NCBI GenBank assembly: GCA_026985515.1
Contig: JALSQH010000206.1
Location: forward strand, 1-13,780
DNA: 13,780 bases
Reading direction: 5' to 3'
From: a bacterium
GTDB lineage: Bacteria > JALSQH01
Within the stretch, counting starts at the first letter, position 1. The number at the start of each line of letters is the position of its first letter. A model generated the notes under the pieces. It was not told where the DNA came from and did not search any database. It saw only the letters and a list, made by a program, of their open reading frames with translations. This document shows, one piece after another, positions 1 through 13,780 of the stretch. A program made the position numbers and the translations under genes.

Positions 1-453
1 TTTGGTTATGTCGATATGCAGAGAGTACTTCAGGAATCGGAGAGAGGCAAAAAGTTAATGGAACAGTTGCAGAAAGAGAAGGCATTCAAGGAAGAGGATC
101 TGAAGTTGAGACAGCAGGAGATCCAGAAATTGAAGGATGAGTATGATAAAACAAAAAACATGCTTTCCCCCCAGAAAAGAGCTGAAAAGGAGAATGAAAT
201 CATCAAGAAAATGCAGGATTTTCAGAATCTTGTGAATCAGTATCAGATGGAACTGCAGCAGAAACAGAGTGAATATACCAAACAGGCAATTGATGAGATA
301 AAGGATATAATTTCAGATTATGCGAAACAACATGGCTACAATTTGATTCTTTTAAAGGATGCTGTTCTCTACATGCCTTCTTCATCCGACATAACTGATG
401 ATATAATAGAAGAGTACAACAGATGGTACAGAAAAGTAAAGAGCAAAAAGTAG
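1..453 (+). CDS. skp: Periplasmic chaperone Skp/OmpH family (5' end cut off)
   Basis: Partial gene: the reading frame is open from base 1, and the first visible residues [18 protein letters not shown] match the start of the mature OmpH/Skp domain, so only the signal peptide and a few residues are missing. 150 codons are visible. The middle (about residues 20-95) is a long charged coiled coil rich in Lys, Glu and Gln, as in the tentacles of Skp. The end returns to the conserved body strand ([20 protein letters not shown]) followed by a helix and a basic tail. Skp trimers hold unfolded outer-membrane proteins in the periplasm for delivery to BamA. Its position directly before lpxD, with a 31-nt overlap, matches the common bamA-skp-lpxD-fabZ-lpxA order, so bamA is the likely upstream neighbour (inferred). 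Family assignment is firm; function is by homology. Confidence 0.93.
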
Positions 454-1454
454 CGCTGACACTTCGTGAAATTGCAGATGAGGTAAACGGTAGGGTTGTG
501 GGTGACCCGAATTATGTCGTAACAGGAATTTCAACTATTCAGGATGCAGATTCTAACTCCTTAACATTTCTTGCAAATCCAAAATACAGGAAATTCGTTT
601 CCACAACCAGGGCGGGAGCTATTCTTATTAACGAGGATCCCGGTGTCGCAGGAAAGAACTTCATTGTGGTTGATGACCCGTATCTTGCTTTTGCGAAAAT
701 CCTTGCGAAACACTTCTACACCCCACCAGTTCCTGCCGGGATTTCGAAGAGGGCAATTGTTTCAGAGAATGCGGTGATAGGGGAGAATGTCACTGTTGGG
801 GATGGAACCATAATTTCTGATGGGGTCTCAATCGGTGACGGTACCTACATCTATCCGGGTGTTTTCATAAGTGAGAACAGCAGAGTGGGTAAAAATGCAT
901 TGATTTACCCGGGTGTTATTGTCAGGGAGAACAGCATCATAGGAGACAATGTGATAATCCAGCCAGGTGTGGTGATTGGAGGAGATGGTTTTGGGTTTGT
1001 CCCGGGAAAGAATGGTCATTTCAAAATTCCTCAACTTGGTAATGTGGTCATAGAAGATGATGTGGAGATTGGAGCCAACACCACCATTGATAGAGGTGCC
1101 ATAGGGAGCACGGTAATCGGAAAAGGGACCAAAATAGATAATCTTGTCCAGATAGGTCACAATGTTACCATAGGAAAATATTGTCTGATAGCCGCTCAGG
1201 TCGGTATTGCTGGAAGTACTAAAATAGGAAATTTCGTTATGATAGGTGGGCAGGCTGGTATAGCGGGTCATCTTGAGATAGGTGATGGAGTTCAGATAGC
1301 TGCAAAGAGTGGTATAAATGCTTCCATTCCACCCGGTGAGATAGTTGGTGGAATTCCAGCGGTAAGGCACAGAGATTGGTTGAAGATTGTATCGGTATGG
1401 AAAAGGTTGCCCCAGCTCTGGGAGAGGGTAAAGAAACTGGAGGATAAAAGATGA
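423..1454 (+). CDS. lpxD: UDP-3-O-acylglucosamine N-acyltransferase LpxD
   Basis: LpxD adds the second 3-hydroxyacyl chain, from acyl-ACP, to the 2-amino group of UDP-3-O-acylglucosamine in the cytoplasm. The protein has 343 residues (E. coli LpxD has 341). Residues about 12-100 form the uridine-binding N-terminal domain, with the typical stretch [13 protein letters not shown]. From about residue 108 to 310 there are hexapeptide repeats of a left-handed beta-helix. The LpxD hallmark GGDGFGF is at 187-193, and the catalytic histidine is His246 in VQIGHNV. A C-terminal helix (about 318-343) matches the ACP-recognition helix. The ATG at 423 lies inside skp and has a purine-rich GAAGAG about 8 nt upstream. 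No later ATG or GTG fits, so the protein starts roughly 8 residues earlier than the E. coli enzyme. The stop overlaps the fabZ start in an ATGA. Confidence 0.97.
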
Positions 1455-1894
1455 ATGATTGGGAAGAAATTGTAGAACTGTTACCACATAGATTTCCCTT
1501 TGTGCTCATTGATAGAGTGGAGTCCTTTAAAGAGGGCAAAAAAATTGTCGCGGTAAAAAATGTCTCCTTTGATGAGCCATTTTTCTCAGGTCACTTTCCC
1601 TCAAATCCCCTGATGCCTGGTGTTCTTATTATTGAGTCTATGGCACAGGCCGGGGGACTTCTACTGGTGAAGAGTTATCCTGAGTTGAAAAATGCTCCAG
1701 CGTTTCTGGTGGGAATAGATAAAGCGAGGTTCAAAAAAGAGGTCAGACCGGGGGATCAGCTTTTAATTGAAGTTGTATTGAAGAGAAAGGTTGGATCAAT
1801 TTATAATCTCAAGTGTAAGGCCTCTGTGGAAGGGTCCATTGCCGCTGAGGCTGAAATACTTGTTTCCATAAATAAAGATCAGGAGAAGGAGTGA
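1451..1894 (+). CDS. fabZ: 3-hydroxyacyl-ACP dehydratase FabZ
   Basis: FabZ dehydrates (3R)-hydroxyacyl-ACP to trans-2-enoyl-ACP in fatty acid elongation. It competes with LpxA and LpxD for the 3-hydroxyacyl-ACP pool, which explains its place between them. The 147-residue length is normal for the family. The hot-dog fold signatures are clear: [14 protein letters not shown] near the start, then [20 protein letters not shown] with catalytic His48 and Glu62, then MAQAGG on the central helix, and [18 protein letters not shown]. The GHFP/PGV pattern and the short length indicate FabZ rather than FabA. The start codon overlaps the lpxD stop (ATGA) and a strong GGAGG lies 7 nt upstream at 1439-1443, so coupled translation is likely. 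No LpxC fusion is present, unlike the LpxC-FabZ fusions of Bacteroidetes. Confidence 0.97.
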
Positions 1895-1897
1895 AGT

Positions 1898-2701
1898 ATG
1901 AGTGTCAAAATTGATCCCAGAGCTATTGTGGAGAAGGGAGCAGAGTTGGGTGAGAATGTTGTTATTGATGCCTATGCCTTTGTGGGGAGTAAGGTTAAAA
2001 TTGGAGACAACACCTATGTGGGACCCGGGGTTATCATAAAAAATAGAACTACCATCGGGAAGAATAACAAATTCTTTGCCTATTCATCCATTGGTGAAAT
2101 ACCGCAGGATCTCAAATATCATGGAGAAGATACTGAACTGATAATCGGCGATAATAACACATTCAGAGAGTTTGTAACCATTAATATTGGAACTGAGGGT
2201 GGTGGGGGGGTGACCAGGATTGGAAATAATAATCTGTTTATGGCGTACACCCATGTCGCTCATGATTGCATAATAGGAGATTTCAATGTATTTTCCAATC
2301 TTGCCTCACTGGCTGGTCACATAGTTGTGGGAAATCATGTTGGTGTTGGTGGAATGTCCGGTATTCATCAGTTTGTTCACATAGGTGATTATGCCTATAT
2401 TGGTGGTGGTTCAATGGTTACTCAGGATGTTGTACCCTTTGTGATGGTGGCGGGAAACAGGGCAGAGGTTTATGGAATAAACAGAATTGGACTTGAGAGA
2501 AAGGGATTCAGTGAGGAACAGATTAAGATTGTAAAGAGGATATTTGAGATTTTTTTTAAATCTGGTCTCACTGTAAAGGAGGCTGTAAATAAAATTTCAA
2601 CAGAACTTCCCCAGACAAAAGAGGTAAAAATATTCCTTGACTTTGTCAGAAATGCTTCTGATCGGGGTTTCTGCCGGCTGGTTAAGAATAATTCCCGATA
2701 G
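1898..2701 (+). CDS. lpxA: UDP-N-acetylglucosamine O-acyltransferase LpxA
   Basis: LpxA performs the first, reversible step of lipid A synthesis: transfer of a 3-hydroxyacyl chain from ACP to the 3-OH of UDP-GlcNAc. The protein has 267 residues (E. coli 262). Hexapeptide repeats run from about residue 5 to 190, followed by a helical C-terminal domain. Diagnostic segments are IGEIPQDLKYHGE (65-77), the catalytic His122 in HVAHDC (E. coli His125), His141 and His157, and VAGNRAEVYGINRIGLERKGF (start about 184). By alignment from memory, the acyl-chain ruler position (E. coli Gly173) is Gly170, which suggests a long rather than a C10 chain. The start has two Shine-Dalgarno cores (AGGAGAAGGAG, 1881-1891) and lies 3 nt after the fabZ stop. 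A run of seven G at 2204-2210 falls in the conserved glycine loop. Confidence 0.97.
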   Translation: MSVKIDPRAIVEKGAELGENVVIDAYAFVGSKVKIGDNTYVGPGVIIKNRTTIGKNNKFFAYSSIGEIPQDLKYHGEDTELIIGDNNTFREFVTINIGTEGGGGVTRIGNNNLFMAYTHVAHDCIIGDFNVFSNLASLAGHIVVGNHVGVGGMSGIHQFVHIGDYAYIGGGSMVTQDVVPFVMVAGNRAEVYGINRIGLERKGFSEEQIKIVKRIFEIFFKSGLTVKEAVNKISTELPQTKEVKIFLDFVRNASDRGFCRLVKNNSR

Positions 2702-2721
2702 GTCAGAGTGGGGAATTTGTT

Positions 2722-3846
2722 ATGAAAAAAATCCTCGTCATAACAGGTGAGGAGTCGGGGGACAAGCAGTTCTCTCTTTTCTGGAGAGAAATAAGTCCCT
2801 TTCTTTCTGAGGATTATTTACTCTGGGGCATAGGGGGGAATTTCTTCACTTCCATTGGAGGAGAGGTTGTTTTCCCTCAGGAGAACCTTTCTGTAATGGG
2901 TGTTACTGAGGTCCTTTTCAGAGCCAGAGACATCCTTGAGGCGGGGAAAAGGATTCTGAGTCATCCATATCTGACAGAAACTTCCGGAGTTGTACTTGTG
3001 GATTTCCCCGATTTTAATTTCAGAATTGGAAAGTTACTTGCAGGAAGAGGTTATCCTGTAATTTATTTTATCCCTCCCAAGGTGTGGGCATGGAGGAGGG
3101 GTAGAATAAAGGTTATGAAAAAGTTTGTTAAGCTTGCACTGCTCATTTTTCCCTTTGAATCAGAACTCTACTCTGCTGAGGGGATTGAGAATATCTATGT
3201 TGGAAATCCTGCTATCAGGTATCTCGGGAAAAGGTTGAAGAGTGCCGCAAGAGATTCAGTTCTTCTTCTGCCTGGTAGCAGAAATTTTGAGGTTGAGAAA
3301 CTCCTCCCCATAATGCTCAGGACTGTAAAAGTCCTTGATTTTTATGGATATAAATTGAAGAAGAAATTGATACTTGCCAGCAGTGTGGACAGAACAAAAA
3401 TTGTTACTCTGCTAACTGAAGCAGAGACCTGTGGGGAAATTGTGATAGTGGATGAAAAGAATCTGGTAGAAGTCCTTCCCACAGGAAGAATTGCCATAGC
3501 TGCCTCTGGTACCATTAATCTTGAACTCGCTGTGGCAGGAGTTCCACAGGTGGTTGTTTACAGGGTTTCACCTCTGACTTTTGCGATAGGTAAAAGGTTT
3601 GTTAAGCTTTCTCATGTTTCTCCAGTAAATATTGTGGCCGGCAGGGAGGTGGTGCCTGAATTGCTTCAGGATGAATGCAATGAGAAAAGAATCGTTGAGA
3701 AAGTGTTGAATTTTCTGGATAATGAGGAGCTGGTTAGCAGAGTCAGATCGGGCTATGAAGAGGTGACTGGAGTTCTTTCCTCCGGGGTTGAACCATCTCT
3801 AATTGCCAGCAAAGTAGAGGAAATTTTTGAGAAAAAGGGAAGATGA
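2722..3846 (+). CDS. lpxB: Lipid-A-disaccharide synthase LpxB
   Basis: LpxB (glycosyltransferase family GT19) joins UDP-2,3-diacylglucosamine and 2,3-diacylglucosamine 1-phosphate into the lipid A disaccharide at the inner face of the cytoplasmic membrane. It has 374 residues (E. coli 382). N-terminal motifs are ITGEESGD (7-14), GIGG (36-39), MGVTEVL (59-65), VLVDFPDFNF (91-100) and PPKVWAWRRGR (118-128). C-terminal motifs are LLPGSR (182-187), AASGTINLELA (260-270) and VNIVAGREVVPELLQ (302-316). Two differences from the usual family pattern stand out. The motif normally written GHP or GHT is GNP here (161-163), and the linker from it to LLPGSR is about 10 residues shorter than in E. coli. 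It lies 20 nt after lpxA with only a weak GTGGGGA ribosome site. It directly follows lpxA, so the lpxI often placed here is absent. Confidence 0.95.
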   Translation: MKKILVITGEESGDKQFSLFWREISPFLSEDYLLWGIGGNFFTSIGGEVVFPQENLSVMGVTEVLFRARDILEAGKRILSHPYLTETSGVVLVDFPDFNFRIGKLLAGRGYPVIYFIPPKVWAWRRGRIKVMKKFVKLALLIFPFESELYSAEGIENIYVGNPAIRYLGKRLKSAARDSVLLLPGSRNFEVEKLLPIMLRTVKVLDFYGYKLKKKLILASSVDRTKIVTLLTEAETCGEIVIVDEKNLVEVLPTGRIAIAASGTINLELAVAGVPQVVVYRVSPLTFAIGKRFVKLSHVSPVNIVAGREVVPELLQDECNEKRIVEKVLNFLDNEELVSRVRSGYEEVTGVLSSGVEPSLIASKVEEIFEKKGR

Positions 3847-5561
3847 AAGTTTATCTTAGATTGTTGAGATATGTTTACCCCTACAGGACATCTCTGATAC
3901 TTGCCTCTCTTTTTATGTTACTTGTGGCGGGTCTCACTTCCCTCAGTGCCTACATTGTGAAACCTGTTATGGATTATATCTTTGTGCAGAAGAAGGAGAA
4001 TTTGATTATCCCCTTTGCAATTCTTATCATACTGATTTTCTTCTTCAAAGGTCTTTTTTCATACCTGCAGAGAGTTATAATGGGAAGGGTGGGAATGAGG
4101 GTTGTAACAGATCTCAGACAGGAACTCTTTGATCACCTGTTGACGCAGAATCTTGCCTTTTTCAGATCAGAGTCCTCTGGAAATCTTCTTTCAAGGATTG
4201 TTAACGATGTGTACATGGTCCAGTATGCCGTCACTCAGGCAATAACAGGACTTGTTCAGCATGTTTTTACAGTTGTGGGTCTTGTGGTTGTTGTTTTTTA
4301 TCTTAACTGGAAACTTGCCCTGGTGGCGATTATCGCTTTTCCCCTGGCAGTTTATCCTTTGATCTACTTCAGTTCCAAGATGAGGAAGTACAGCAGGGAA
4401 ACTCAAAGGTCGTATGCAAGAATGAGTGAAGCTATTCTGGAGGGATTGAAGGGCATCGAAATAGTTAAGGCTTTCAATACAGAGGAGTATGAGAGGAAGA
4501 GGTTTAGAAAGGCCAACGAGGAGATGTTCAGAATAGTAATGAAGAATGTGAAAGTTCAATCTCTCTCCAATCCTGTCATGGAGTTCATAGGCGCCCTGGG
4601 GGTTGCATCCATCATATCCCTCGGGGGTTACCTTGTTATACATGGAAGTATGACTGAAGGTGAATTCTTCTCCTTCATAGCATCACTCATGATGCTATAT
4701 GATCCCATCAGAAAAATGAATGGTCTGAATGCCCTCATTCAGGCTGGAGTTGCTGCTGGTGAGAGGATTTTCCAGATACTTGACCTGCCACCTGAAGATG
4801 TTGATAGAGGAGGCGAAATTGAGTTAAGGGAGTTCAGGAGGGAGATAAGATATGAGAATGTCTACTTTAAGTATGAGGATAGATGGATAATCAGGGGAGT
4901 TGATATGGAAATAAAGAGGGGTGAGATGGTGGCAATAGTTGGTTCCACAGGCAGTGGTAAAACAACCCTTGTCAATCTTCTTCCCAGGTTTTATGAAGTA
5001 ACAGATGGGAGGATCACGATTGATGGAATAGATATAAGGAAGATTTCCCTTTCCTCGCTGAGAAGAAATATCAGCGTTGTGACTCAGCAAACCATTCTTT
5101 TTAACGATACTGTGAAAAACAATATTCTCTATGGTAACTGGGGAGCCAGTTTTGAAGATGTGGTCAGAGCGGCAAAAATTGCAAATGCCCATGATTTCAT
5201 AATGAAACTCCCCGAAGGTTATGACACGATTATTGGTGAGGGGGGAGTTAAACTCTCGGGAGGGGAGAGGCAGAGAATTTCAATTGCCAGGGCAGTTTTG
5301 AAAAATGCTCCAATTTTAATACTTGATGAAGCTACAAGTTCACTGGATACTGAATCGGAGAGAGAAGTACAGGAGGCAATAGAGAGGTTGATGGAAAACA
5401 GAACTTCCATAGTAATTGCCCACAGATTATCCACCGTGAGAAGAGCAGATAGAATATATGTAATAAAGGATGGGAAGGTTGTTGAAGTGGGAAATCATGA
5501 GGAATTGCTGAGTCTTAAAGGAGAATATCACCGTTTGTACATGCTCCAGTTTGAGGATTGA
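3843..5561 (+). CDS. msbA: MsbA-type lipid A / lipid ABC flippase (fused TMD-NBD)
   Basis: A 572-residue half-transporter of the ABCB/MsbA type (E. coli MsbA has 582). The N-terminal part (about 1-315) holds about six membrane helices, for example 18-40, 55-75, 138-153, 156-178 and 245-268, with typical coupling sequences (FFRSESSGNLLSRIVNDV). The C-terminal ATPase has Walker A GSTGSGKT (367-374), Q-loop QQTILF (415-420), signature LSGGERQR (471-478), Walker B ILILDEATSSLD (491-502) and H-loop His527. It should work as a homodimer, flipping core-lipid A from the inner to the outer leaflet of the cytoplasmic membrane. Sequence alone cannot separate MsbA from related lipid or peptide exporters; the position inside the LPS operon is the main support. 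The start overlaps the lpxB stop (ATGA) with AAGGGA just upstream. Confidence 0.9.
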   Translation: MKVYLRLLRYVYPYRTSLILASLFMLLVAGLTSLSAYIVKPVMDYIFVQKKENLIIPFAILIILIFFFKGLFSYLQRVIMGRVGMRVVTDLRQELFDHLLTQNLAFFRSESSGNLLSRIVNDVYMVQYAVTQAITGLVQHVFTVVGLVVVVFYLNWKLALVAIIAFPLAVYPLIYFSSKMRKYSRETQRSYARMSEAILEGLKGIEIVKAFNTEEYERKRFRKANEEMFRIVMKNVKVQSLSNPVMEFIGALGVASIISLGGYLVIHGSMTEGEFFSFIASLMMLYDPIRKMNGLNALIQAGVAAGERIFQILDLPPEDVDRGGEIELREFRREIRYENVYFKYEDRWIIRGVDMEIKRGEMVAIVGSTGSGKTTLVNLLPRFYEVTDGRITIDGIDIRKISLSSLRRNISVVTQQTILFNDTVKNNILYGNWGASFEDVVRAAKIANAHDFIMKLPEGYDTIIGEGGVKLSGGERQRISIARAVLKNAPILILDEATSSLDTESEREVQEAIERLMENRTSIVIAHRLSTVRRADRIYVIKDGKVVEVGNHEELLSLKGEYHRLYMLQFED

Positions 5562-6223
5562 TGAAGAGTATAAAGAGATTCTTAAAAGTTGTGTTACTTC
5601 CTGATCTTGTCTATCTTATTGTAAGATTGTGGTTGAAAACGGAAAAGTTTATCTATGTAAACCTCTCCGCACCAGATTACTACCACAAAAAAGGTCAGCC
5701 ACTGATTGTCCTTTCCTGGCATGGAAGAATAATCTTTGTTCCTCCAACACCCTGGAGCAACAGGGTTAAAATCCTTGTCAGTGCCTCTGAAGATGGAGAT
5801 ATGCTGATGAGATACCTTTCTAAATTCGGCTATGAATTTGTGAGGGGTTCGAGCAGAAGGGGTGGTGAACAGGCGAAGGAGCTTCTGTACAGAGCCCTTT
5901 TGGAAGGATACGATATTTTCATAACTCCTGATGGTCCCACAGGTCCCTCTCACAGATTCAAGCCGGGAGCGGTGGAGCTTGCTCTTAAAACTGGTGTCCC
6001 TATTTTCTTTCTTCTGGTAACCACCAATCGTCCTGTTGAGTTTAATACATGGGACAGGTTTTGCATTCCTGCTCCCTTCAGCAGGGTTTATGTTTTCCTC
6101 TTTGGTCCATACTATGTGAAGAACATGGATGATGTGAATTTCCTGGAAAAGGAAATGACGAGGCTTGAGAGAGAAATTGACTGGATAGCAGGGAGAAGGG
6201 GAGATGATCTACCAGGTTTTTAA
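5561..6223 (+). CDS. DUF374-family lysophospholipid/lipid A acyltransferase-like protein
   Basis: A 220-residue protein of the DUF374 branch of the LPLAT acyltransferase superfamily. Residues 8-24 could be a membrane anchor. The conserved order of this family is present: SWHGRIIF (52-59, His54 as the catalytic-type histidine), SASEDGD (74-80), VRGSSRRGG (94-102), TPDGPTGP (122-129), KPGAVELA (134-141) and WDRFCIPAPFSRV (164-176). Sitting between msbA and waaA, it probably adds a secondary acyl chain to Kdo-lipid A, taking the place of LpxL/LpxM, which are a different family. This role is inferred from context; acylation of another lipid is possible. I chose ATG 5561, which forms TGATG with the msbA stop and has GAGG 4 nt upstream. 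A TTG at 5558 would add one residue. Confidence 0.85.
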   Translation: MKSIKRFLKVVLLPDLVYLIVRLWLKTEKFIYVNLSAPDYYHKKGQPLIVLSWHGRIIFVPPTPWSNRVKILVSASEDGDMLMRYLSKFGYEFVRGSSRRGGEQAKELLYRALLEGYDIFITPDGPTGPSHRFKPGAVELALKTGVPIFFLLVTTNRPVEFNTWDRFCIPAPFSRVYVFLFGPYYVKNMDDVNFLEKEMTRLEREIDWIAGRRGDDLPGF

Positions 6224-7415
6224 TAGCCTTTTATACCCTTTTATTCTTCCCCCTGCCCTGGTGTGGGCGGATAGAAGGAGAGATTATCCACTGAAAATCT
6301 GGAAGCGAATTTCTCCTGAGATAGAGAAAAAGTACACCTATTTTTTCCATCTTGCATCACTGGGAGAGGCAAAAACAGTATCTCCTTTGCTGGAATTGTG
6401 GAAGGAAAAAAGAGAGGAAATTCTTTTTGAAACTGTTACACCAACCGGTTATGATGAGTTGAGAAAAAAAAATGTTGATGTGATTCTCTTTCCCTTTGAT
6501 TACTATCCTCTTCTTCGCCTCAATCTAAGGAGAAGTGGAGTGAAAGAGGTTTTTGTTTTTGAGACTGAGCTCTGGCCAGGACTTTTCTCTGCAGCCCTTG
6601 ATCTCAATTTAAGGATCAGAATGCTGAATGTAAAATTTTCATCTTCTACCATTTCAATGCTCAGGAGAACAGCTTTTTTCTGGAAAAGGAGGTTAAGAAA
6701 GGTTGATGAATGGTTCGTTGTTGATGAAGGGGTGAGAAATTTTTTGGTGGAATATGGCATAGAACCGGGTAAAATAAAGATTGTCCCGGATCTCAAGTAC
6801 CTGTCATCTTTTGAGGAGAAAAGCGTCCCTGAAGAAATTGAGGAAAAATTGAGGGCATGGGTGGGAAATAGAAGAAAAAAAATAATAGTAATGGGTAGCA
6901 TGCACAGGGGTGAAGAGGTTATTGTTGAGAAGGTAAATTTTAAAAAGTTCAGGGTGATCTATGTACCCCGGCATCTCAACTATCTTGATGAGTTGAAGCA
7001 TTATTTTTCTGAAAGGGGCCTGAGGGTTTCCCTTTTTTCTGATACTGCAGAGAAGGATTCAGACATCTTGCTGGTAGATAAATATGGTCTGTTGTCATTT
7101 CTCTACAATGCTGGTGACATTGCAGTTATAGGTGGTAGTTTTGTACCACACGGAGGCCACAACCCTCTTGAAGCTGTCAATTTTAAAAAACCAGTGATTT
7201 TTGGCAGGCACATGGAAAATTTTAAGGAAATCGCGGGAGATATAGTTGAATGTGGCGGAGGAAGTTTCTGTGATATGGAAGAAATTGGAGAACTTTTTGA
7301 AAATTATGAAAAATTCTTTCCCCCTGATAAAATTAGAAGTTGCTATGAAAGGTTGAAAAAAAAGAGTGAGATTGTAAGAGATGCATACTCACTGATTGTA
7401 ATGGGAACAAATTAA
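6204..7415 (+). CDS. waaA: 3-deoxy-D-manno-octulosonic acid transferase WaaA (KdtA)
   Basis: WaaA (GT30) moves Kdo from CMP-Kdo to the lipid IVA precursor at the cytoplasmic face of the inner membrane. It has 403 residues (E. coli 425). The N-terminus (about 3-20) is the usual hydrophobic anchor. Family motifs follow in order: HLASLGEAKTVSPLL (49-63, with Glu55 at the catalytic-base position), ETVTPTGYDELR (76-87), FPFDYYP (96-102), FVFETELWPGL (117-127), MGSMHRGEE (230-238), VPRHLNYLDEL (254-264) and GGSFVPHGGHNPLEA (310-324) ending in GRHMENFKEIA (334-344). The segment usually GNLKFD reads PDLKY (195-199). The number of Kdo residues added cannot be told from sequence. The ATG lies 20 nt inside the acyltransferase gene, with GGGAG 8 nt upstream. 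An A9 run (6464-6472) lies within the gene. Confidence 0.96.
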   Translation: MIYQVFNSLLYPFILPPALVWADRRRDYPLKIWKRISPEIEKKYTYFFHLASLGEAKTVSPLLELWKEKREEILFETVTPTGYDELRKKNVDVILFPFDYYPLLRLNLRRSGVKEVFVFETELWPGLFSAALDLNLRIRMLNVKFSSSTISMLRRTAFFWKRRLRKVDEWFVVDEGVRNFLVEYGIEPGKIKIVPDLKYLSSFEEKSVPEEIEEKLRAWVGNRRKKIIVMGSMHRGEEVIVEKVNFKKFRVIYVPRHLNYLDELKHYFSERGLRVSLFSDTAEKDSDILLVDKYGLLSFLYNAGDIAVIGGSFVPHGGHNPLEAVNFKKPVIFGRHMENFKEIAGDIVECGGGSFCDMEEIGELFENYEKFFPPDKIRSCYERLKKKSEIVRDAYSLIVMGTN

Positions 7416-7461
7416 AGTGAAATATGTCTAAACTCTACAAAATTCTCAAAGGGGTGAGGTC

Positions 7462-8382
7462 ATGATAGAGGTAAAGGAGCTAACCAAGAAATATGGAGAT
7501 TTTGTGGCTGTTGATAATATTTCTTTCAATGTTGAGAAGGGTCACATTCTTGGTTTTCTGGGTCCCAATGGAGCAGGTAAGACCACCACAATGAGGATAC
7601 TGACAACTTACATGCCACCCACCTCTGGAACGGCGATTATTGATGGACATGATATTCTTGAAGCTCCAGATGAGGTGAGGAAGAGAGTTGGTTATCTTCC
7701 TGAGAATCCACCCCTTTATAATGATCTGACTGTTGAGGAATACCTCAGGTATGTTGGCAAACTTAAAGGGTTGCCTAAGGGGAAGTTAAATGAGAGACTG
7801 GAATATGTTATTGAAACTGTGGGACTTAAAGAGAAGTACAGAAGCGTTATTGCAACATTATCCAAAGGTTACAGGCAACGTGTGGGGATTGCCCAGGCAA
7901 TAATACACGATCCGTCAGTTGTCATACTGGATGAGCCAACCATTGGACTCGATCCCAACCAGGTAATTGAGGTGAGAAGACTTATAAGGGGACTTGCAGG
8001 GAGCCACACTGTAATCCTTAGTACCCACATATTATCAGAGGTTACCAATACCTGTGACGATGTGGTCATAATCCATCGCGGGAAAATTGTGGCTGCAGAT
8101 TCCATTGAGGCACTCACAACAAAGGGGGAAGGGGTAATTCGGTACAGGGTAAGGGTAAAGTTCCCTGAAAAGGTTGATTCTGGTCAGGTTGAGAGTGAAT
8201 TTGATTTTGTTAAAGATGTGGATGTAAATCCCCATACAGGCGAGGTGATGCTCACTGTTGACCGGGATGAAAATATAGACAGGGTCGCAGAATATTTTGT
8301 AAATTCAGGTGCAGGGTTACTTGAGTTTGCGCCCATGGCAACGACCCTTGAAGAGATATTTACACGTCTGACCATCCAGTAG
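7462..8382 (+). CDS. ABC transporter ATP-binding protein, GldA-like
   Basis: A 306-residue cytoplasmic ATPase subunit. It shows Walker A GPNGAGKT (34-41), Q-loop region YLPENPPLYNDLTVEEYL (78-95), signature LSKGYRQR (133-140), Walker B VVILDEP (153-159) with D-loop GLDP (162-165), and H-loop His189. LSKGY in place of LSGGQ and the PENPPLY segment are typical of the GldA/CcmA-type ATPases that energise ABC-2 permeases. The last 85 residues form a C-terminal extension ending in TTLEEIFTRL, also normal for this group. It should power the permease encoded 13 nt downstream. The start is supported by GGTGAGG just before the ATG. GldA was named for gliding in Flavobacterium, but such cassettes are common in non-gliding bacteria, so I give no gene symbol and infer no motility. 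The substrate is unknown. Confidence 0.93.
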   Translation: MIEVKELTKKYGDFVAVDNISFNVEKGHILGFLGPNGAGKTTTMRILTTYMPPTSGTAIIDGHDILEAPDEVRKRVGYLPENPPLYNDLTVEEYLRYVGKLKGLPKGKLNERLEYVIETVGLKEKYRSVIATLSKGYRQRVGIAQAIIHDPSVVILDEPTIGLDPNQVIEVRRLIRGLAGSHTVILSTHILSEVTNTCDDVVIIHRGKIVAADSIEALTTKGEGVIRYRVRVKFPEKVDSGQVESEFDFVKDVDVNPHTGEVMLTVDRDENIDRVAEYFVNSGAGLLEFAPMATTLEEIFTRLTIQ

Positions 8383-8395
8383 AAAGGAGGGAGAG

Positions 8396-9178
8396 ATGCG
8401 GAAAATATTCATTGTGGCAGGGAAGGAGTTGAAAAGCTACTTTATTTCTCCTGTTGCATATGTTGTACTTGGAGCATTTACACTTATTATGGGATGGTTT
8501 TACTTCAATCTTGTTGCCAGATTTATACAACTTTCAAAGATTTATGAATTGTTCAGAAGACCTGATATTTTGATGAGGATGAATCTCAATGACATGGTGA
8601 TTCAGCCCCTCTTCTACAATATGACGGTAATTCTCATCATTCTCACCCCCATTGTTACAATGAGACTCCTCGCTGAGGAGAAAAATTCTTACACAGATGA
8701 ATTGATCCTTACCTCACCCATTTCCACCTGGCAGATTGTTCTTGGCAAGTTCCTGGGGGCATTTATTTTTTTCCTGATAATGGTTGCAATAACTGCCATA
8801 TTTATGATTGAGCTTTTCGCTTACAGCAATCCCAGACCAGAATTTGGGCCGGTGGTTTCTGGTTATCTGGGGATAATTCTGATGGGTGCATCCTTCCTTG
8901 CTGTGGGAATTTTCACATCAAGTTTAACAAAAAATCAGATTGTTGCTGCGGTTAGCAGTTTCCTTATTCTTCTCATGTTCTATGTTATCAACATAATTTC
9001 ACCTTCAGTCAACTCCAAAACCCTGAGTGAAATACTTGATTATCTTTCCCTCATAAAGCAGTTTGAAGATTTTGGAAAGGGACTCATTGATCTGAGAAAT
9101 GTGGTTTACTATCTCAGCTTCATAACCATTGGCCTCTTCTTTACGAAACTCTCCCTTGATTCACTGAGGTGGAGGTAG
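8396..9178 (+). CDS. ABC-2 type permease, GldF-like
   Basis: A 260-residue membrane protein with about six predicted helices (approximately 18-38, 73-88, 115-140, 152-174, 180-203 and 236-252). The family mark is PIVTMRLLAEEKNSYTDEL (85-103) followed by LTSPIS, the amphipathic cytoplasmic segment typical of GldF/NosY permeases that contacts the ATPase. It would form the transmembrane channel driven by the GldA-like ATPase. The start at 8396 is well supported by AAAGGAGG (8383-8390) directly after the stop of the ATPase gene. Its stop lies 4 nt before the next start, and the GGAGG of that gene overlaps the 3' end of this one (9171-9175), so the genes are probably co-translated. Permease identity is firm; the substrate is unknown. 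Confidence 0.9.
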   Translation: MRKIFIVAGKELKSYFISPVAYVVLGAFTLIMGWFYFNLVARFIQLSKIYELFRRPDILMRMNLNDMVIQPLFYNMTVILIILTPIVTMRLLAEEKNSYTDELILTSPISTWQIVLGKFLGAFIFFLIMVAITAIFMIELFAYSNPRPEFGPVVSGYLGIILMGASFLAVGIFTSSLTKNQIVAAVSSFLILLMFYVINIISPSVNSKTLSEILDYLSLIKQFEDFGKGLIDLRNVVYYLSFITIGLFFTKLSLDSLRWR

Positions 9179-9182
9179 GAAG

Positions 9183-10745
9183 ATGAAAGCGTTTTACAGA
9201 TTTCTTGGAATATCTGGGCTGGTTTTGTTCCTTTTTGGTATTCTCTCTCTCGTAATTTCGGGCAGCTTTAACCTCTATAACGAATTTCACATAATAGGTG
9301 GTGCCTTCTTGATAGCCATATATGTTGTCACAAATTTTCTCTCCCTCAAAGAAATGGTAAAATCAAGAACAACCCGCTACGGTACAGGTACGATCATCTA
9401 CGGACTTATCATTCTTGCAATAATTGTTATTGTTAATCTGATTGTTTACAAAAAGCCTCACAGATGGGATCTTACTGCCAATAAGATTTACAGCCTTTCT
9501 CCCGAAAGCAGAAAGGTTGCAAATATGGTTCCTAAAGGGACGGTAATACTGGCCTTCTTCGAGGGTGGAAATGCAGGTTCCCTCGAAGATCTTCTAAAAA
9601 CTTACGACTACGCCAGTGATAAATTGTCCTATGAAATTGTTGATCCTGAGAAGCATCCCGAACTTGCCGAAAAATATCAGGTTAACAGGGATAAAACTGT
9701 TGTTGTGGTGTACAAAGACAGGTTTTTCAAAGCCACCGAGAACACCGAGCAGGGAATCACAAATGCACTTCTTAAACTCGTGAAGGGTCAGCACAAAAAG
9801 ATTTACTTTCTTACAGATCATGGTGAGCATTCCATTGATGATGATTCTGCACAGGGGTATTCAATTTTGAAAAAGGCTCTTCAGGATGATAATTTTGTTG
9901 TTGAGAAGTTTTCCATACTGAAACAGGGTAAAATCCCTTCCGATGCGTCAGCCATTGTTATCGCAAGTCCATCAAAGGATTACCTGCCGGAGGAGTTAAA
10001 AGTTATTACGGATTATCTAAAGAATGGTGGCGCCGCTATCTTTATGATTGACCCGATGGAAGATGCAGGTTTCAAAGCATATTTGAAAAAATGGGGAGTC
10101 ATCCTTGATAATGACATCATAATTGACAGAAGCGTGAAGCTGTTTGGAGGTCCACAGCTTGGGGTGTTTCCCATTGTCACTGATTATGGGATCCATCCCA
10201 TAACTAAAGGTATGGATGGAAAAAGCACAATTTTTCCAATGGCAAGATCTCTTGAAAAGTTTGAACCACCCAAAGGAGTAACAAGTGAAACTTTTTACAC
10301 CGATTTGAAAATTACCCCCATTGCAAAAACATCTCCCACTGCCTGGGGTGAGACTGATCTGAAGAAATTATTTGAGAAACATCAGGCAGAAATAGACAGG
10401 AATGATAAAAAAGGACCCCTCACAATTGCAATGGTCGTGGAGAAGGATTTGAAGAAAAAGGGGAAAAATGAGGAACAGAAGAGCATCAGAATAGTGGTGA
10501 TTGGAAATTCAAGTTTCGTTACCAATAAGTTTATACAGTCTTTTTACAACATGGATTTCTTTCTCAACATGGTTAACTGGCTTGCAGGTGAGGAGAATTT
10601 CATAACTATCAGACCAAAAAGCACAAAGTACTCAAGGGTAAATTTCACTGAGGAGCAGATGACAAATATGTTCTATCTTTCCGTTTTGATACTTCCTGAA
10701 CTGATTATTCTTCTGGGGATCTTTGTGTGGAGCAAGAGGAGGTAA
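9183..10745 (+). CDS. GldG-family membrane protein (ABC-type auxiliary transport component)
   Basis: A 520-residue protein with the layout of GldG-type partners of ABC-2 permeases. Two N-terminal helices (about 8-27 and 36-54) and a third (about 70-89) are followed by a large soluble domain (90-493) and one C-terminal helix (about 494-516) ending WSKRR. Recognisable segments are RWDLTANKIYSLSPESRKV (94-112), NALLKLVKGQHKKIYFLTDHGEH (start 194), IASPSKDYLPEEL (260-272), NGGAAIFMIDPM (281-292), SPTAWGE (384-390), IRIVVIGNSSFVTN (435-448) and NMVNWLAGEENFITIRPKS (462-480). The soluble part probably faces the periplasm between the anchors. It may receive or gate the substrate, but no biochemical role is established that I can cite. 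The gene sits 4 nt from each neighbour, with GGAGG 7 nt before the ATG. Confidence 0.88.
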   Translation: MKAFYRFLGISGLVLFLFGILSLVISGSFNLYNEFHIIGGAFLIAIYVVTNFLSLKEMVKSRTTRYGTGTIIYGLIILAIIVIVNLIVYKKPHRWDLTANKIYSLSPESRKVANMVPKGTVILAFFEGGNAGSLEDLLKTYDYASDKLSYEIVDPEKHPELAEKYQVNRDKTVVVVYKDRFFKATENTEQGITNALLKLVKGQHKKIYFLTDHGEHSIDDDSAQGYSILKKALQDDNFVVEKFSILKQGKIPSDASAIVIASPSKDYLPEELKVITDYLKNGGAAIFMIDPMEDAGFKAYLKKWGVILDNDIIIDRSVKLFGGPQLGVFPIVTDYGIHPITKGMDGKSTIFPMARSLEKFEPPKGVTSETFYTDLKITPIAKTSPTAWGETDLKKLFEKHQAEIDRNDKKGPLTIAMVVEKDLKKKGKNEEQKSIRIVVIGNSSFVTNKFIQSFYNMDFFLNMVNWLAGEENFITIRPKSTKYSRVNFTEEQMTNMFYLSVLILPELIILLGIFVWSKRR

Positions 10746-10749
10746 ACAG

Positions 10750-12228
10750 ATGCTGAGAAGAATTGTAATTGCCCTTGTAATTTTGATACTCCTTGGGGGT
10801 TACCTGGCCTGGATGAATAAGAAGGAAGAGCAGCACAGAGAACATGAGGAAAAGGTTAAAAGGGTGGTTAAGCTTGATTTTAAGAAGCTGAAAAAGATTA
10901 CCATAAAGAGACCAGATTCCACAGTGGTGCTGGAGAAAAGGGGAGAGTACTGGTGGATTGTTTATCCAGTGGAGGATTATGCCGATAAATTTTCTGTATC
11001 AAACATTATTGATGCTTTCAGGGATAGAAAATATGAGAAAATTGTGACAAATAATCCAAAGGATCTTTCAATCTTCCAGCTTGATCATCCGAAGTATGAA
11101 ATAACCTTTGAAACCTCTGATGGGAAAAAGGTGACCCTGCAGATTGGAAGGAGATTGCCAACTTCATCCAAGATCTTCTACAAGTATCCCGAAAGCAAAA
11201 CAGTTTATCTTGTAAGAACTGGTTTCCTCTATGCTCTGAGAAAGAAGGTTAATGGGTACAGAAGTAAAAAGGTGTTCAAAATATTCTTTCAGAAACCCGC
11301 CACAGGTTCAGGTGCAATAGTAAGGATAAAAGTTACCCAGATTGGCGGAGATTCCTATACCCTTATTTCAAAATTGAAGAAGAAAAAGTATCCTGAGGAG
11401 GTTGAAAAATCGGGAGAGGCCAAGGAGAAAAACCTTGTCTGGTTTATCAGGGGAAAGGTTAATGACATAGCAGATTCTGGCAATGTGGGAGATCTTCTCA
11501 GAAAAATAAGGGATGTCACCCTTGCCGATTTTGTAATCAATGAGCCTTCAGAAAGGGATATAAAGAGATATGGACTTGACCATCCCCAGAAAAAGTTAGA
11601 GGTTTTTCTTGATTCGGGTCAGAAAGCAGTTCTTCTGATCGGGAAAGAGACTCCAAAACCAAAAAATGAGTTTTATGCAATGGTCGTGGGATATAGGCCA
11701 ATTTTTACAATCAGGAAGTATGATGTGGAGAAGTTATTTCCCTCTGTGGAGAGCCTGAGGTCAAAGAAAATTGCTGATTTCTTTGCCGATGAGATAACAG
11801 GTGTTGCTGTGAGAAAGTTTTCAAAAGAGGTACACCTGCACAGGACAAAGGACTGGAGATGGCTTGATGAAAAGGGCGTTGAGCATGACCCCAACGAAGT
11901 TTACAAATTCCTTACAACTCTCAATGGCCAGTATGGAAGCGAATTGATACAATCACCCGATGATAAGGTGGAGAAGAAAAGCATCGGATTTGTGAAAATT
12001 TATGATAAGAAAGGAAATAAAGTTGTGGACTTTGTGATTCATCAACCTGTAAAAATTGAAGATAGAGGTAAGGTTGTATGGCTGGAGTTCCCGGCCCGTG
12101 GAGTTTATATAAAGAAGCATTCATCAATTGGTGATCTGATACCTGATTCACTCTTCAAGTCCAAAAAGGAACTTGAAAAGGAGAAAGAAAAGGAAAAGGG
12201 AAGTAAAAAAGAAGGGGAGAAAAAGTAG
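10750..12228 (+). CDS. Membrane-anchored DUF4340-type protein with duplicated unit
   Basis: A 492-residue protein with one N-terminal helix (about 4-21) that anchors a large, probably periplasmic, domain. Two similar units can be seen. The first centres on FQLDHPKYEITFETSDGKKV (109-128) and QIGRRLPTSSKIFYKYPESK (131-150). The second centres on YGLDHPQKKLEVFLDSGQKA (274-293) and LIGKETPKPKNEFYAM (296-311). Such repeats are the mark of the DUF4340 family, which often follows GldG-like genes. I know of no established function. The tail (about 470-492) is almost only Lys and Glu and is encoded by a polypurine tract. I chose the ATG at 10750, with GAGGAGG 7 nt upstream, over an in-frame TTG at 10723 that overlaps the previous gene. 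The TAG stop directly abuts the stop of the convergent gene. Confidence 0.85.
   Translation: MLRRIVIALVILILLGGYLAWMNKKEEQHREHEEKVKRVVKLDFKKLKKITIKRPDSTVVLEKRGEYWWIVYPVEDYADKFSVSNIIDAFRDRKYEKIVTNNPKDLSIFQLDHPKYEITFETSDGKKVTLQIGRRLPTSSKIFYKYPESKTVYLVRTGFLYALRKKVNGYRSKKVFKIFFQKPATGSGAIVRIKVTQIGGDSYTLISKLKKKKYPEEVEKSGEAKEKNLVWFIRGKVNDIADSGNVGDLLRKIRDVTLADFVINEPSERDIKRYGLDHPQKKLEVFLDSGQKAVLLIGKETPKPKNEFYAMVVGYRPIFTIRKYDVEKLFPSVESLRSKKIADFFADEITGVAVRKFSKEVHLHRTKDWRWLDEKGVEHDPNEVYKFLTTLNGQYGSELIQSPDDKVEKKSIGFVKIYDKKGNKVVDFVIHQPVKIEDRGKVVWLEFPARGVYIKKHSSIGDLIPDSLFKSKKELEKEKEKEKGSKKEGEKK
12175..12225 (+). other. Polypurine tract at the 3' end of the DUF4340 gene
   Basis: Two uninterrupted purine runs, 12175-12203 (29 nt) and 12205-12225 (21 nt), are separated by a single T. 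On the + strand they encode the Lys/Glu tail of the DUF4340 protein. On the - strand the T-rich complement supplies the U-tract of the convergent gene's terminator. Homopurine-homopyrimidine DNA of this length can in principle form triplex structures; that is general knowledge, not seen here. Confidence 0.8.
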
Positions 12229-12239
12229 TTATTCTCCCC
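12214..12239 (-). terminator. Rho-independent terminator of the - strand gene, with both stop codons in the loop
   Basis: A perfect 8-bp inverted repeat, GGGGAGAA (12214-12221) and TTCTCCCC (12232-12239), encloses a 10-nt loop. Read on the - strand, the hairpin is followed by TTCTTTTTTAC, a good U-tract, so it fits an intrinsic terminator for the 12229-13224 gene. Read on the + strand it is followed by CTGTTAAAAATCC, with no U-tract, so it is probably weak or inactive for the long + strand operon. The loop contains the TAG stop of the DUF4340 gene (12226-12228) and the TAA stop of the opposite gene (12229-12231). Confidence 0.75.
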
Positions 12240-13224
12240 CTGTTAAAAATCCAATTGTAAGGGAAACAACAGGCCCGAGCTGGTCTGTACTCCTTCCTCC
12301 GAAACCGCCACCTATGGTGAAAATTACGGGCTCAAAGATTCCTGTTATCTTCAACTGAGAAGAAATCCTTTTTTCTTTACTGTTGTCAGGATAGTTGGAA
12401 ATATTTGTATCACTGCTAATGAGGAAATTTTTTGATAACCTGAAAGTACCATCGATTCCTGTACAGGTACCAACATTTTTGATATATGATGCATAGAAAT
12501 GAAGGTGAGTGGAGTAGATTCTCCCGAGGTAGAGATCCCCCTTCGCTCCCCATGTGACATCGCTGCCCGCTATTCCAAGTATCGGGGTTATGGAAAAGCT
12601 TCTGAATTGAAAAACATATTTAACGAGGGCGATCTTATCAAAAGAATTCCTGGGTCTTACCTGAACATAATCCATAAAGAATCCATATCTTAATCTTATA
12701 CCACTTCTTGCATAGTAGAACCCAATGGATCCCCATGTGTAATTTCTGAGGTTGGAAAAATCTGTGTACTCCAGTGACATCCTGATTTCGTGCCTTTCAA
12801 AGAGATCTTTTTCCTGCTTCCTGAATTCCACAACCTTTACAAGGTCTCCTATTCTTATTTTCGTTTTATACCACTTTACTTTAGCAATACTGAAATCTAT
12901 ATCAACGTGGGTTACCTTCCCCTCACCAATAATCATCTTTTTCCTGTACACTTTTCCATTCAGAGGATTTCTTATAATTAGCTGTCTGTAAATTTTTACC
13001 CTGTCCCCCTTTGAAATATTCTCATTCATTCCTGCGTCGAAGTAGATTCGATGGTGATGAACCTGGAATATGGTGTAGAAACCAAGGGCTCTTTCAACCC
13101 TTTTTGCGGGAGGTTGAACAGGAACTGTGACACCTTTTGCGGATTCTGTGGTGTTGTCACTGTAACCGTAAAGATTTACACCGATGAGAAGTGCAATAAA
13201 AATGGTCAAGATTTTCCTTACCAT
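12229..13224 (-). CDS. Exported protein with SH3-like domain and predicted outer-membrane beta-barrel
   Basis: Not a gene I recognise by name. The 331-residue product begins with a signal peptide (MVRKILTIFIALLIGVNLYG, cleavage probably near residue 20-24) and a short polar/proline linker (about 23-45). Residues about 50-135 look like a small beta domain: NISKGDRVKIYR (69-80), an NPLNGKVY turn (86-93), VIDFSIA-like VDIDFSIAKV (107-116) and IRIGDLVKVVE (123-133). This pattern resembles SH3-like C-terminal domains of FlgT-type envelope proteins. From about 145 to the end there are roughly ten amphipathic strands with many aromatic and Gly residues, suggesting a small beta-barrel, though it ends FLTGGE rather than in the usual terminal Phe. 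I chose ATG (13222-13224), with GGAGG 5 nt upstream, over a GTG two codons earlier that overlaps that site. A flagellar role is not supported by the neighbours. Confidence 0.75.
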   Translation of the reverse strand: MVRKILTIFIALLIGVNLYGYSDNTTESAKGVTVPVQPPAKRVERALGFYTIFQVHHHRIYFDAGMNENISKGDRVKIYRQLIIRNPLNGKVYRKKMIIGEGKVTHVDIDFSIAKVKWYKTKIRIGDLVKVVEFRKQEKDLFERHEIRMSLEYTDFSNLRNYTWGSIGFYYARSGIRLRYGFFMDYVQVRPRNSFDKIALVKYVFQFRSFSITPILGIAGSDVTWGAKGDLYLGRIYSTHLHFYASYIKNVGTCTGIDGTFRLSKNFLISSDTNISNYPDNSKEKRISSQLKITGIFEPVIFTIGGGFGGRSTDQLGPVVSLTIGFLTGGE

Positions 13225-13245
13225 TTCCACCTCCCTTTTTTCTCA

Positions 13246-13338: not shown

Positions 13339-13780
13339 ATGAGAAACTACTTCATTTTTCTCCTCATTCTGGTTGTTGTTGGATGCAGAGTGCAGTCAGA
13401 CACCGGTGGTAACGATGAAAATGGCGGCGGTGGGACTGGGAAGATAGAGAGCTTTAATATCTTCTTACCCGCATTTTCAGATGTAAAAACGATCAATATT
13501 ACGAAGTCCGGTCTGGTTGTGACAGGAATGTATAATTCTTCTTCAACCCTTGCAGTCCTTTCAAATAGTGGGAAGGTGGTGCAATCTCTCAAGCTGAAAG
13601 ATAATCTCTTCATAAACGACACGGTGTATGACCCGGGTGAAAACGCCCTTTACCTTGCTGGTCAGTATGGAAATAAGTATGCCTATGTCGGGAAGTACAG
13701 TGTCACTTCAAATAAAATTGAATGGGAGAAAACATTTGGCTCTGATATTGAAAACAGAGAGTTTGTCATAAGAGGCGTCG
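13339..13780 (+). CDS. Lipoprotein, beta-propeller-like (3' end cut off)
   Basis: Partial gene: 147 codons are visible and the frame is still open at the window end. The start MRNYFIFLLILVVVGC is a lipoprotein signal with lipobox VVGC and lipidated Cys16. The next residue is Arg, so the inner-membrane retention signal Asp known in E. coli is absent and outer-membrane sorting is plausible. A Gly/Asn-rich linker (about 22-34) follows. The remaining part has repeated short strands such as GLVVTGMYNSSSTLAVLSN and ALYLAGQYGNKYAYVGKYS with a WEKTFG-type end, which resembles blades of beta-propeller or PQQ-like repeat proteins. No function can be given. The ATG at 13339 has GGAGG at 13325-13329 and its own predicted promoter in the divergent region. 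Confidence 0.8.
   Translation, partial: MRNYFIFLLILVVVGCRVQSDTGGNDENGGGGTGKIESFNIFLPAFSDVKTINITKSGLVVTGMYNSSSTLAVLSNSGKVVQSLKLKDNLFINDTVYDPGENALYLAGQYGNKYAYVGKYSVTSNKIEWEKTFGSDIENREFVIRGV

Follow-up and report, generated by a model that had tools for sequence, protein, structure and literature searches.

We propose that positions 7,462 to 12,228 of the window, one entire contig (C206, 13,780 nt) of a draft bacterial genome (2.36 Mb in 268 contigs, 97.6% complete), encode an ATP-powered, NosDFY-like envelope complex whose periplasmic tower would act on a protein or lipoprotein client, a reading to which we give a probability of about 0.45. Judged by its sequence, the cassette is unremarkable among the members of a widespread four-gene set, GldA-GldF-GldG-DUF4340, with order, strand and tight spacing all as elsewhere. 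Members occur in over half of the bacterial families sampled, and in Verrucomicrobium spinosum one DUF4340 gene is essential (PMC12283558), yet DUF4340 is scarcely mentioned in the literature searched. The protein families themselves are already catalogued; the kinship of the GIFT domain with IFT52 and Wbp1 has been published, and gliding bacteria are known to have GldAFG. In the open-access literature searched, we found no description of the four-gene cassette, nor any link of GldG with DUF4340 or with MoxR/DUF58. The missing tie to LPS, the recurrence of MoxR/Bat and DnaJ genes nearby and a NosY-like permease give the family a testable direction, to which the window adds one case.

Organization of the locus and its four proteins

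The contig begins with the end of a skp/ompH-like gene, followed by lipid A genes, the cassette and a convergent gene for a secreted protein. The features are listed below, with the evidence for some assignments in brackets.

423..7415, plus strand: lipid A operon lpxD, fabZ, lpxA, lpxB, msbA, DUF374 acyltransferase-like gene, waaA; context, outside the cassette
7416..7461, plus strand: 46-nt spacer from waaA to the ATPase gene, with Shine-Dalgarno-like AGGGGTGAGG and without a terminator-like site
7462..8382, plus strand: GldA-like ABC ATPase, 306 aa (Pfam/NCBIfam and motifs)
8396..9178, plus strand: GldF-like ABC-2 permease, 260 aa (Pfam/NCBIfam)
9183..10745, plus strand: GldG-like protein, 520 aa, with PF09822, DUF7088 and IFT52_GIFT (Pfam/NCBIfam)
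9183..9452, plus strand: three predicted N-terminal membrane helices of GldG, residues 1-90 (model and sequence)
9480..9782, plus strand: thioredoxin-like domain of GldG, without cysteine, residues about 100-200
9798..10604, plus strand: GIFT domain of GldG, IFT52/OST48-like, residues 206-474
10650..10742, plus strand: predicted C-terminal membrane helix of GldG, ending KRR (model and sequence)
10750..12228, plus strand: DUF4340 protein, 492 aa, with N-terminal membrane anchor, three modules and a charged K/E tail
10861..11265, plus strand: DUF4340 module 1 (hhalign)
11305..11751, plus strand: DUF4340 module 2 (hhalign)
11779..12159, plus strand: DUF4340 module 3, missed by Pfam (hhalign)
12215..12240, minus strand: terminator-like hairpin of the convergent gene, the downstream border of the cassette

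The first-pass annotation had described a tight run of four genes behind waaA; its coordinates and gaps (13, 4 and 4 nt, with the ATPase gene starting 46 nt after the end of waaA at 7415) are exact, and Pfam and NCBIfam support the gene names. A purine-rich Shine-Dalgarno-like sequence lies ahead of every cassette start. For the DUF4340 gene it is strong and precedes the ATG at 10750, making the alternative TTG at 10723 given by the ORF tool less likely. As had been noticed earlier, there is no clear terminator behind waaA: no plus-strand terminator-like site was found in 7416-7461, and the sole plus-strand promoter-like site just upstream of the ATPase gene is a 9/12 match at 7306, within waaA. 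Read-through from the lipid A operon into the cassette is therefore plausible on sequence grounds.

Beyond the cassette, the convergent gene (12229-13230, minus strand) encodes a 333-aa protein with a signal-peptide-like N-terminus and a strand-rich C-terminal half; it matches nothing in Pfam or NCBIfam and may be an outer-membrane beta-barrel. A last plus-strand frame (13339-13779), running past the contig end, opens as a putative lipoprotein with an LVVVGC lipobox and matches no family.

In translation, the Walker A (GPNGAGKTT), signature (LSKGYRQR) and Walker B (VVILDEP) motifs of the ATPase are all intact. Together with the matches to PF00005 (115 bits) and PF12679 (53.6 bits), they place the first two genes in the ABC-2 exporter superfamily. 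When a profile of 16 GldF sequences was compared with solved structures, NosY of NosDFY was the only clear relative (E 1.6e-5); GldF does not match the LptF/LptG family.

GldG combines a PF09822 (ABC_transp_aux) match of 111.5 bits, against a cut-off of 34.7, with a GIFT fold. Its predicted structure, built from 52 relatives, reaches pLDDT 88; like that of the DUF4340 protein, it is a single-chain model. Since the C-terminal helix ends in KRR, which the positive-inside rule would place inside, the soluble part is predicted to be periplasmic. The thioredoxin-like domain gives a profile match to protein disulfide oxidoreductase (E 3.8e-9). Superposition of the model aligns the GIFT part with IFT52 (Z 25.0, rmsd 2.2, 215 residues) and with OST48/Wbp1 (Z 19.8-22.8). 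There are no cysteines in the window GldG and 0-4 in its relatives, making thioredoxin and amidotransferase chemistry both unlikely. The two domains probably form a module for binding or docking, not for redox. Residues His213, Glu215, Glu271, Pro291, Gly411-Pro412, Gly441, Phe445, Asn456 and Asn462 are invariant across 52 GldG sequences and may mark a conserved pocket or interface.

The fourth protein clearly belongs to the DUF4340 family (PF14238; 127 bits against a cut-off of 25). Previously described as duplicated, it proves to have three tandem modules, the third aligning to the other two at 99.4-99.6% hhalign probability. The earlier view that the last two proteins are large and probably periplasmic agrees with their lengths and predicted location. 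With a predicted structure of pLDDT 91, the full-length DUF4340 protein has no convincing relative among solved structures. The DnaN-like matches from Foldseek reach a TM-score of only 0.13 and the best VIA-align match a Z of 6.0, too little for us to name a relative.

Distribution and recurrent neighbours

GldG is present in 37 of 59 genomes, each from a different family, and when 84,980 genomes were scanned with an alignment of GldG, at least 549 relatives were confirmed. The best 80 of these, picked by similarity to the window GldG, served as named loci; many end at contig borders. They span Acidobacteria, Nitrospinota, several deltaproteobacterial groups, Gemmatimonadota, Calditrichota, KSB1, Aminicenantes, Latescibacterota, Spirochaetes, Poribacteria, Myxococcota and others. 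GldG was called in 72 of them, with GldF before it in 63, GldA two genes before in 58 and DUF4340 after it in 70. The full four-gene order singled out by the first-pass annotation recurs across many phyla, in 56 of the 72 scorable loci, with median gaps of -4, +3 and -4 nt. Among 192 genomes, DUF4340 was found in 115 and PF09822 in 127, and 112 of the 115 DUF4340-positive genomes have both. GldG is single-copy in the window's own genome. At three loci (L048 in genome G036, L085 and L090) a second DUF4340-like protein is encoded some genes ahead of the cassette.

In a sister genus (G001; contig C148, locus L002), the end of GldF, GldG (75% identical) and DUF4340 (57%) keep their order. By this sequence comparison the DUF4340 protein clearly evolves faster than GldG; synonymous sites are saturated for dN/dS. 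The contig holding GldG is 3.2 kb long there, and waaA and lpxB were not found in the assembly, which is 80% complete. A role in anti-phage defence was rejected, PADLOC having matched the ATPase only generically and the other three proteins not at all.

With neighbours annotated by Pfam, 11 of 72 loci (Gemmatimonadota, Latescibacterota, Calditrichota, Neomarinimicrobiota) have genes for MoxR, DUF58, VWA/BatA and BatD on the flanks of the cassette, several with MoxR-DUF58 ahead and VWA-TPR-BatD after, and DnaJ/DnaK lies near it in 9 of 72; the counts are clade-structured and phylogenetically uncorrected, so we take them as a lead, not a statistic. In other clades the neighbours are housekeeping genes (truB-ribF and pnp, argS, dut). 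PMC3893208 describes MoxR proteins as chaperone-like factors maturing protein complexes. The window's own genome has a MoxR-DUF58-BatA-like run on a different contig from the cassette. The BatA-like protein of this run (contig C249, 2-1330, minus strand) has a GATase/GIFT-like stretch that resembles the GldG fold by eye.

Proposed working and alternatives

Of what enters our preferred reading, the analysis establishes the gene order, its conservation, the predicted folds and topology and the lack of a general LPS link. We infer a single complex in which a GldA dimer would drive two GldF permease halves, forming by analogy a NosFY-like ABC-2 core in the inner membrane. GldG and the DUF4340 protein would stand as a periplasmic tower atop this GldA2-GldF2 core. 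Force from ATP cycles would most likely, again by analogy, be passed to the tower via the membrane helices of GldF and GldG. As for the class of client, the tower would handle a periplasmic substrate, with an envelope protein or lipoprotein more likely than LPS; the chaperone-type recurrent neighbours speak for a protein. The adjacency of the lipid A operon upstream would be local, and the cassette may be using that operon's promoter.

Glycan export is frequent among ABC-2 permeases, and a lipid-linked glycan exporter or flippase is the principal competing possibility, though a distinctly weaker one. GldF would then move an undecaprenyl- or lipid-linked glycan, the GIFT domain and DUF4340 binding its sugar part in the periplasm. 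The structural likeness of GldG to OST48/Wbp1 favours this. It is the main rival because sugar binding has been proposed for GIFT domains, which occur in Wbp1/OST48 (PMC7226087, citing Beatson and Ponting 2004). However, no glycosyltransferase cluster was found among the recurrent neighbours, and the only clear solved relative of GldF, NosY, is not a glycan exporter.

A dedicated LPS or lipid A system that is co-expressed with the lipid A operon seems unlikely, despite a waaA gene only 46 nt ahead without an intervening terminator. We searched 114 related loci, of which the named 80 amount to 1.27 Mb, at E 0.01 with the window's LpxD, FabZ, LpxA, LpxB, DUF374 and WaaA. No homologue of lpxA, lpxB, lpxD, fabZ, DUF374 or waaA was found at any of the 114, although the LpxD, FabZ, LpxA, LpxB and WaaA queries recover their E. 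coli K-12 counterparts at E values of 1e-33 or lower.

LpxC was detected in 166 of 192 genomes. DUF4340 is commoner in LpxC-positive (106/166) than in LpxC-negative genomes (9/26), kinship uncorrected; this excess lends the LPS reading some support and fits an envelope role. Among the nine DUF4340-positive genomes without LpxC, LpxB was found in three (G002, G033 and, weakly, G034) but not in six, although some LpxC or LpxB absences may reflect incomplete assemblies. All six carry PF09822, and five are 93-100% complete (G044, G128, G132, G150, G179). Moreover, MsbA and a separate LptF/LptG (contig C84) already serve lipid A/LPS export in the window's own genome. The empty survey and the five near-complete genomes argue for a local adjacency and make LPS unlikely as the general substrate, and we dropped an LPS-specific role as a general rule.

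The suggested link to LPS synthesis thus finds no support beyond this genome, where the adjacency is unique so far as surveyed. Nor does the cassette appear to move freely, even distant GldG occurring in only 2 of 72,556 plasmid records. As to the envelope-assembly role once proposed for it, the envelope part fits, but the LPS context as a clue to substrate is unsupported elsewhere.

That the cassette is an efflux pump for drugs or ions, aided by accessory proteins, is improbable. The ATPase does resemble DrrA-type exporters (260 bits, under the NCBIfam cut-off), but simple efflux has no need of two large conserved periplasmic partners, and single copy and wide conservation argue against a resistance gene. 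Least probable is that the cassette serves gliding motility or the T9SS just as GldAFG does in Flavobacterium: GldA, GldF and GldG are the best NCBIfam matches and F. johnsoniae GldA is reported with the identical signature LSKGYRQR (PMC9127263), but the scores fall far short of all three equivalog cut-offs (TIGR03522 327 against 402.6, TIGR03518 146 against 288.5 and TIGR03521 91.5 against 389.85 bits, respectively), the cassette has the extra DUF4340 subunit, and SprA of the T9SS translocon has no match in the 97.6% complete genome, so we rejected membership. Elsewhere the search does find SprA-like translocon proteins: 73 of the 192 other, diverse genomes score, 43 of them above the curated cut-off.

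Comparison with known systems

Flavobacterium GldA-GldF-GldG shares with the cassette the three protein families, the ATPase signature and a GldG bearing both a GIFT domain and a membrane helix at the C-terminus. The cassette differs in its DUF4340 partner and in having the ATPase gene beside GldF/G, and its genome lacks a detectable SprA. Its first GldG membrane helices are extra as well, since the NCBIfam GldG model begins only at residue 75. In Flavobacterium, the lipoproteins GldJ and GldK need GldA for stability (PMC9127263) and a gldG mutant loses much of T9SS secretion (PMC5682007). Both findings favour our preferred explanation, but the proteins studied there are not equivalogs of those in the window, which counts against it.

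LptBFG-C is likewise an envelope ABC complex with a periplasmic partner, but GldF does not match its LptF/LptG family. OST48/Wbp1 and IFT52 share the GIFT fold, which superposes over 215-236 residues, but are eukaryotic, separate subunits without an ABC transporter. We would give little credence, for now, to a broader idea. On this view the cassette would be an ATP-driven machine for periplasmic assembly, conserved broadly and essential in some phyla, and its GldG would unite in one chain the thioredoxin-like and GIFT modules that in eukaryotic oligosaccharyltransferase sit on different subunits (Ost3/6 and OST48/Wbp1). In that case it may be ancient, serving to dock glycan or protein clients for maturation.

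The NosDFY complex, which assembles nitrous oxide reductase and has NosD as its periplasmic partner, provides our mechanistic analogy. It shares the GldF-related ABC-2 permease and the plan of an ATPase, a permease and a large periplasmic partner. NosDFY, however, has a role in copper delivery and neither GldG nor DUF4340, and NosD is unlike the periplasmic partners in the window, which are PF09822 and PF14238 proteins only.
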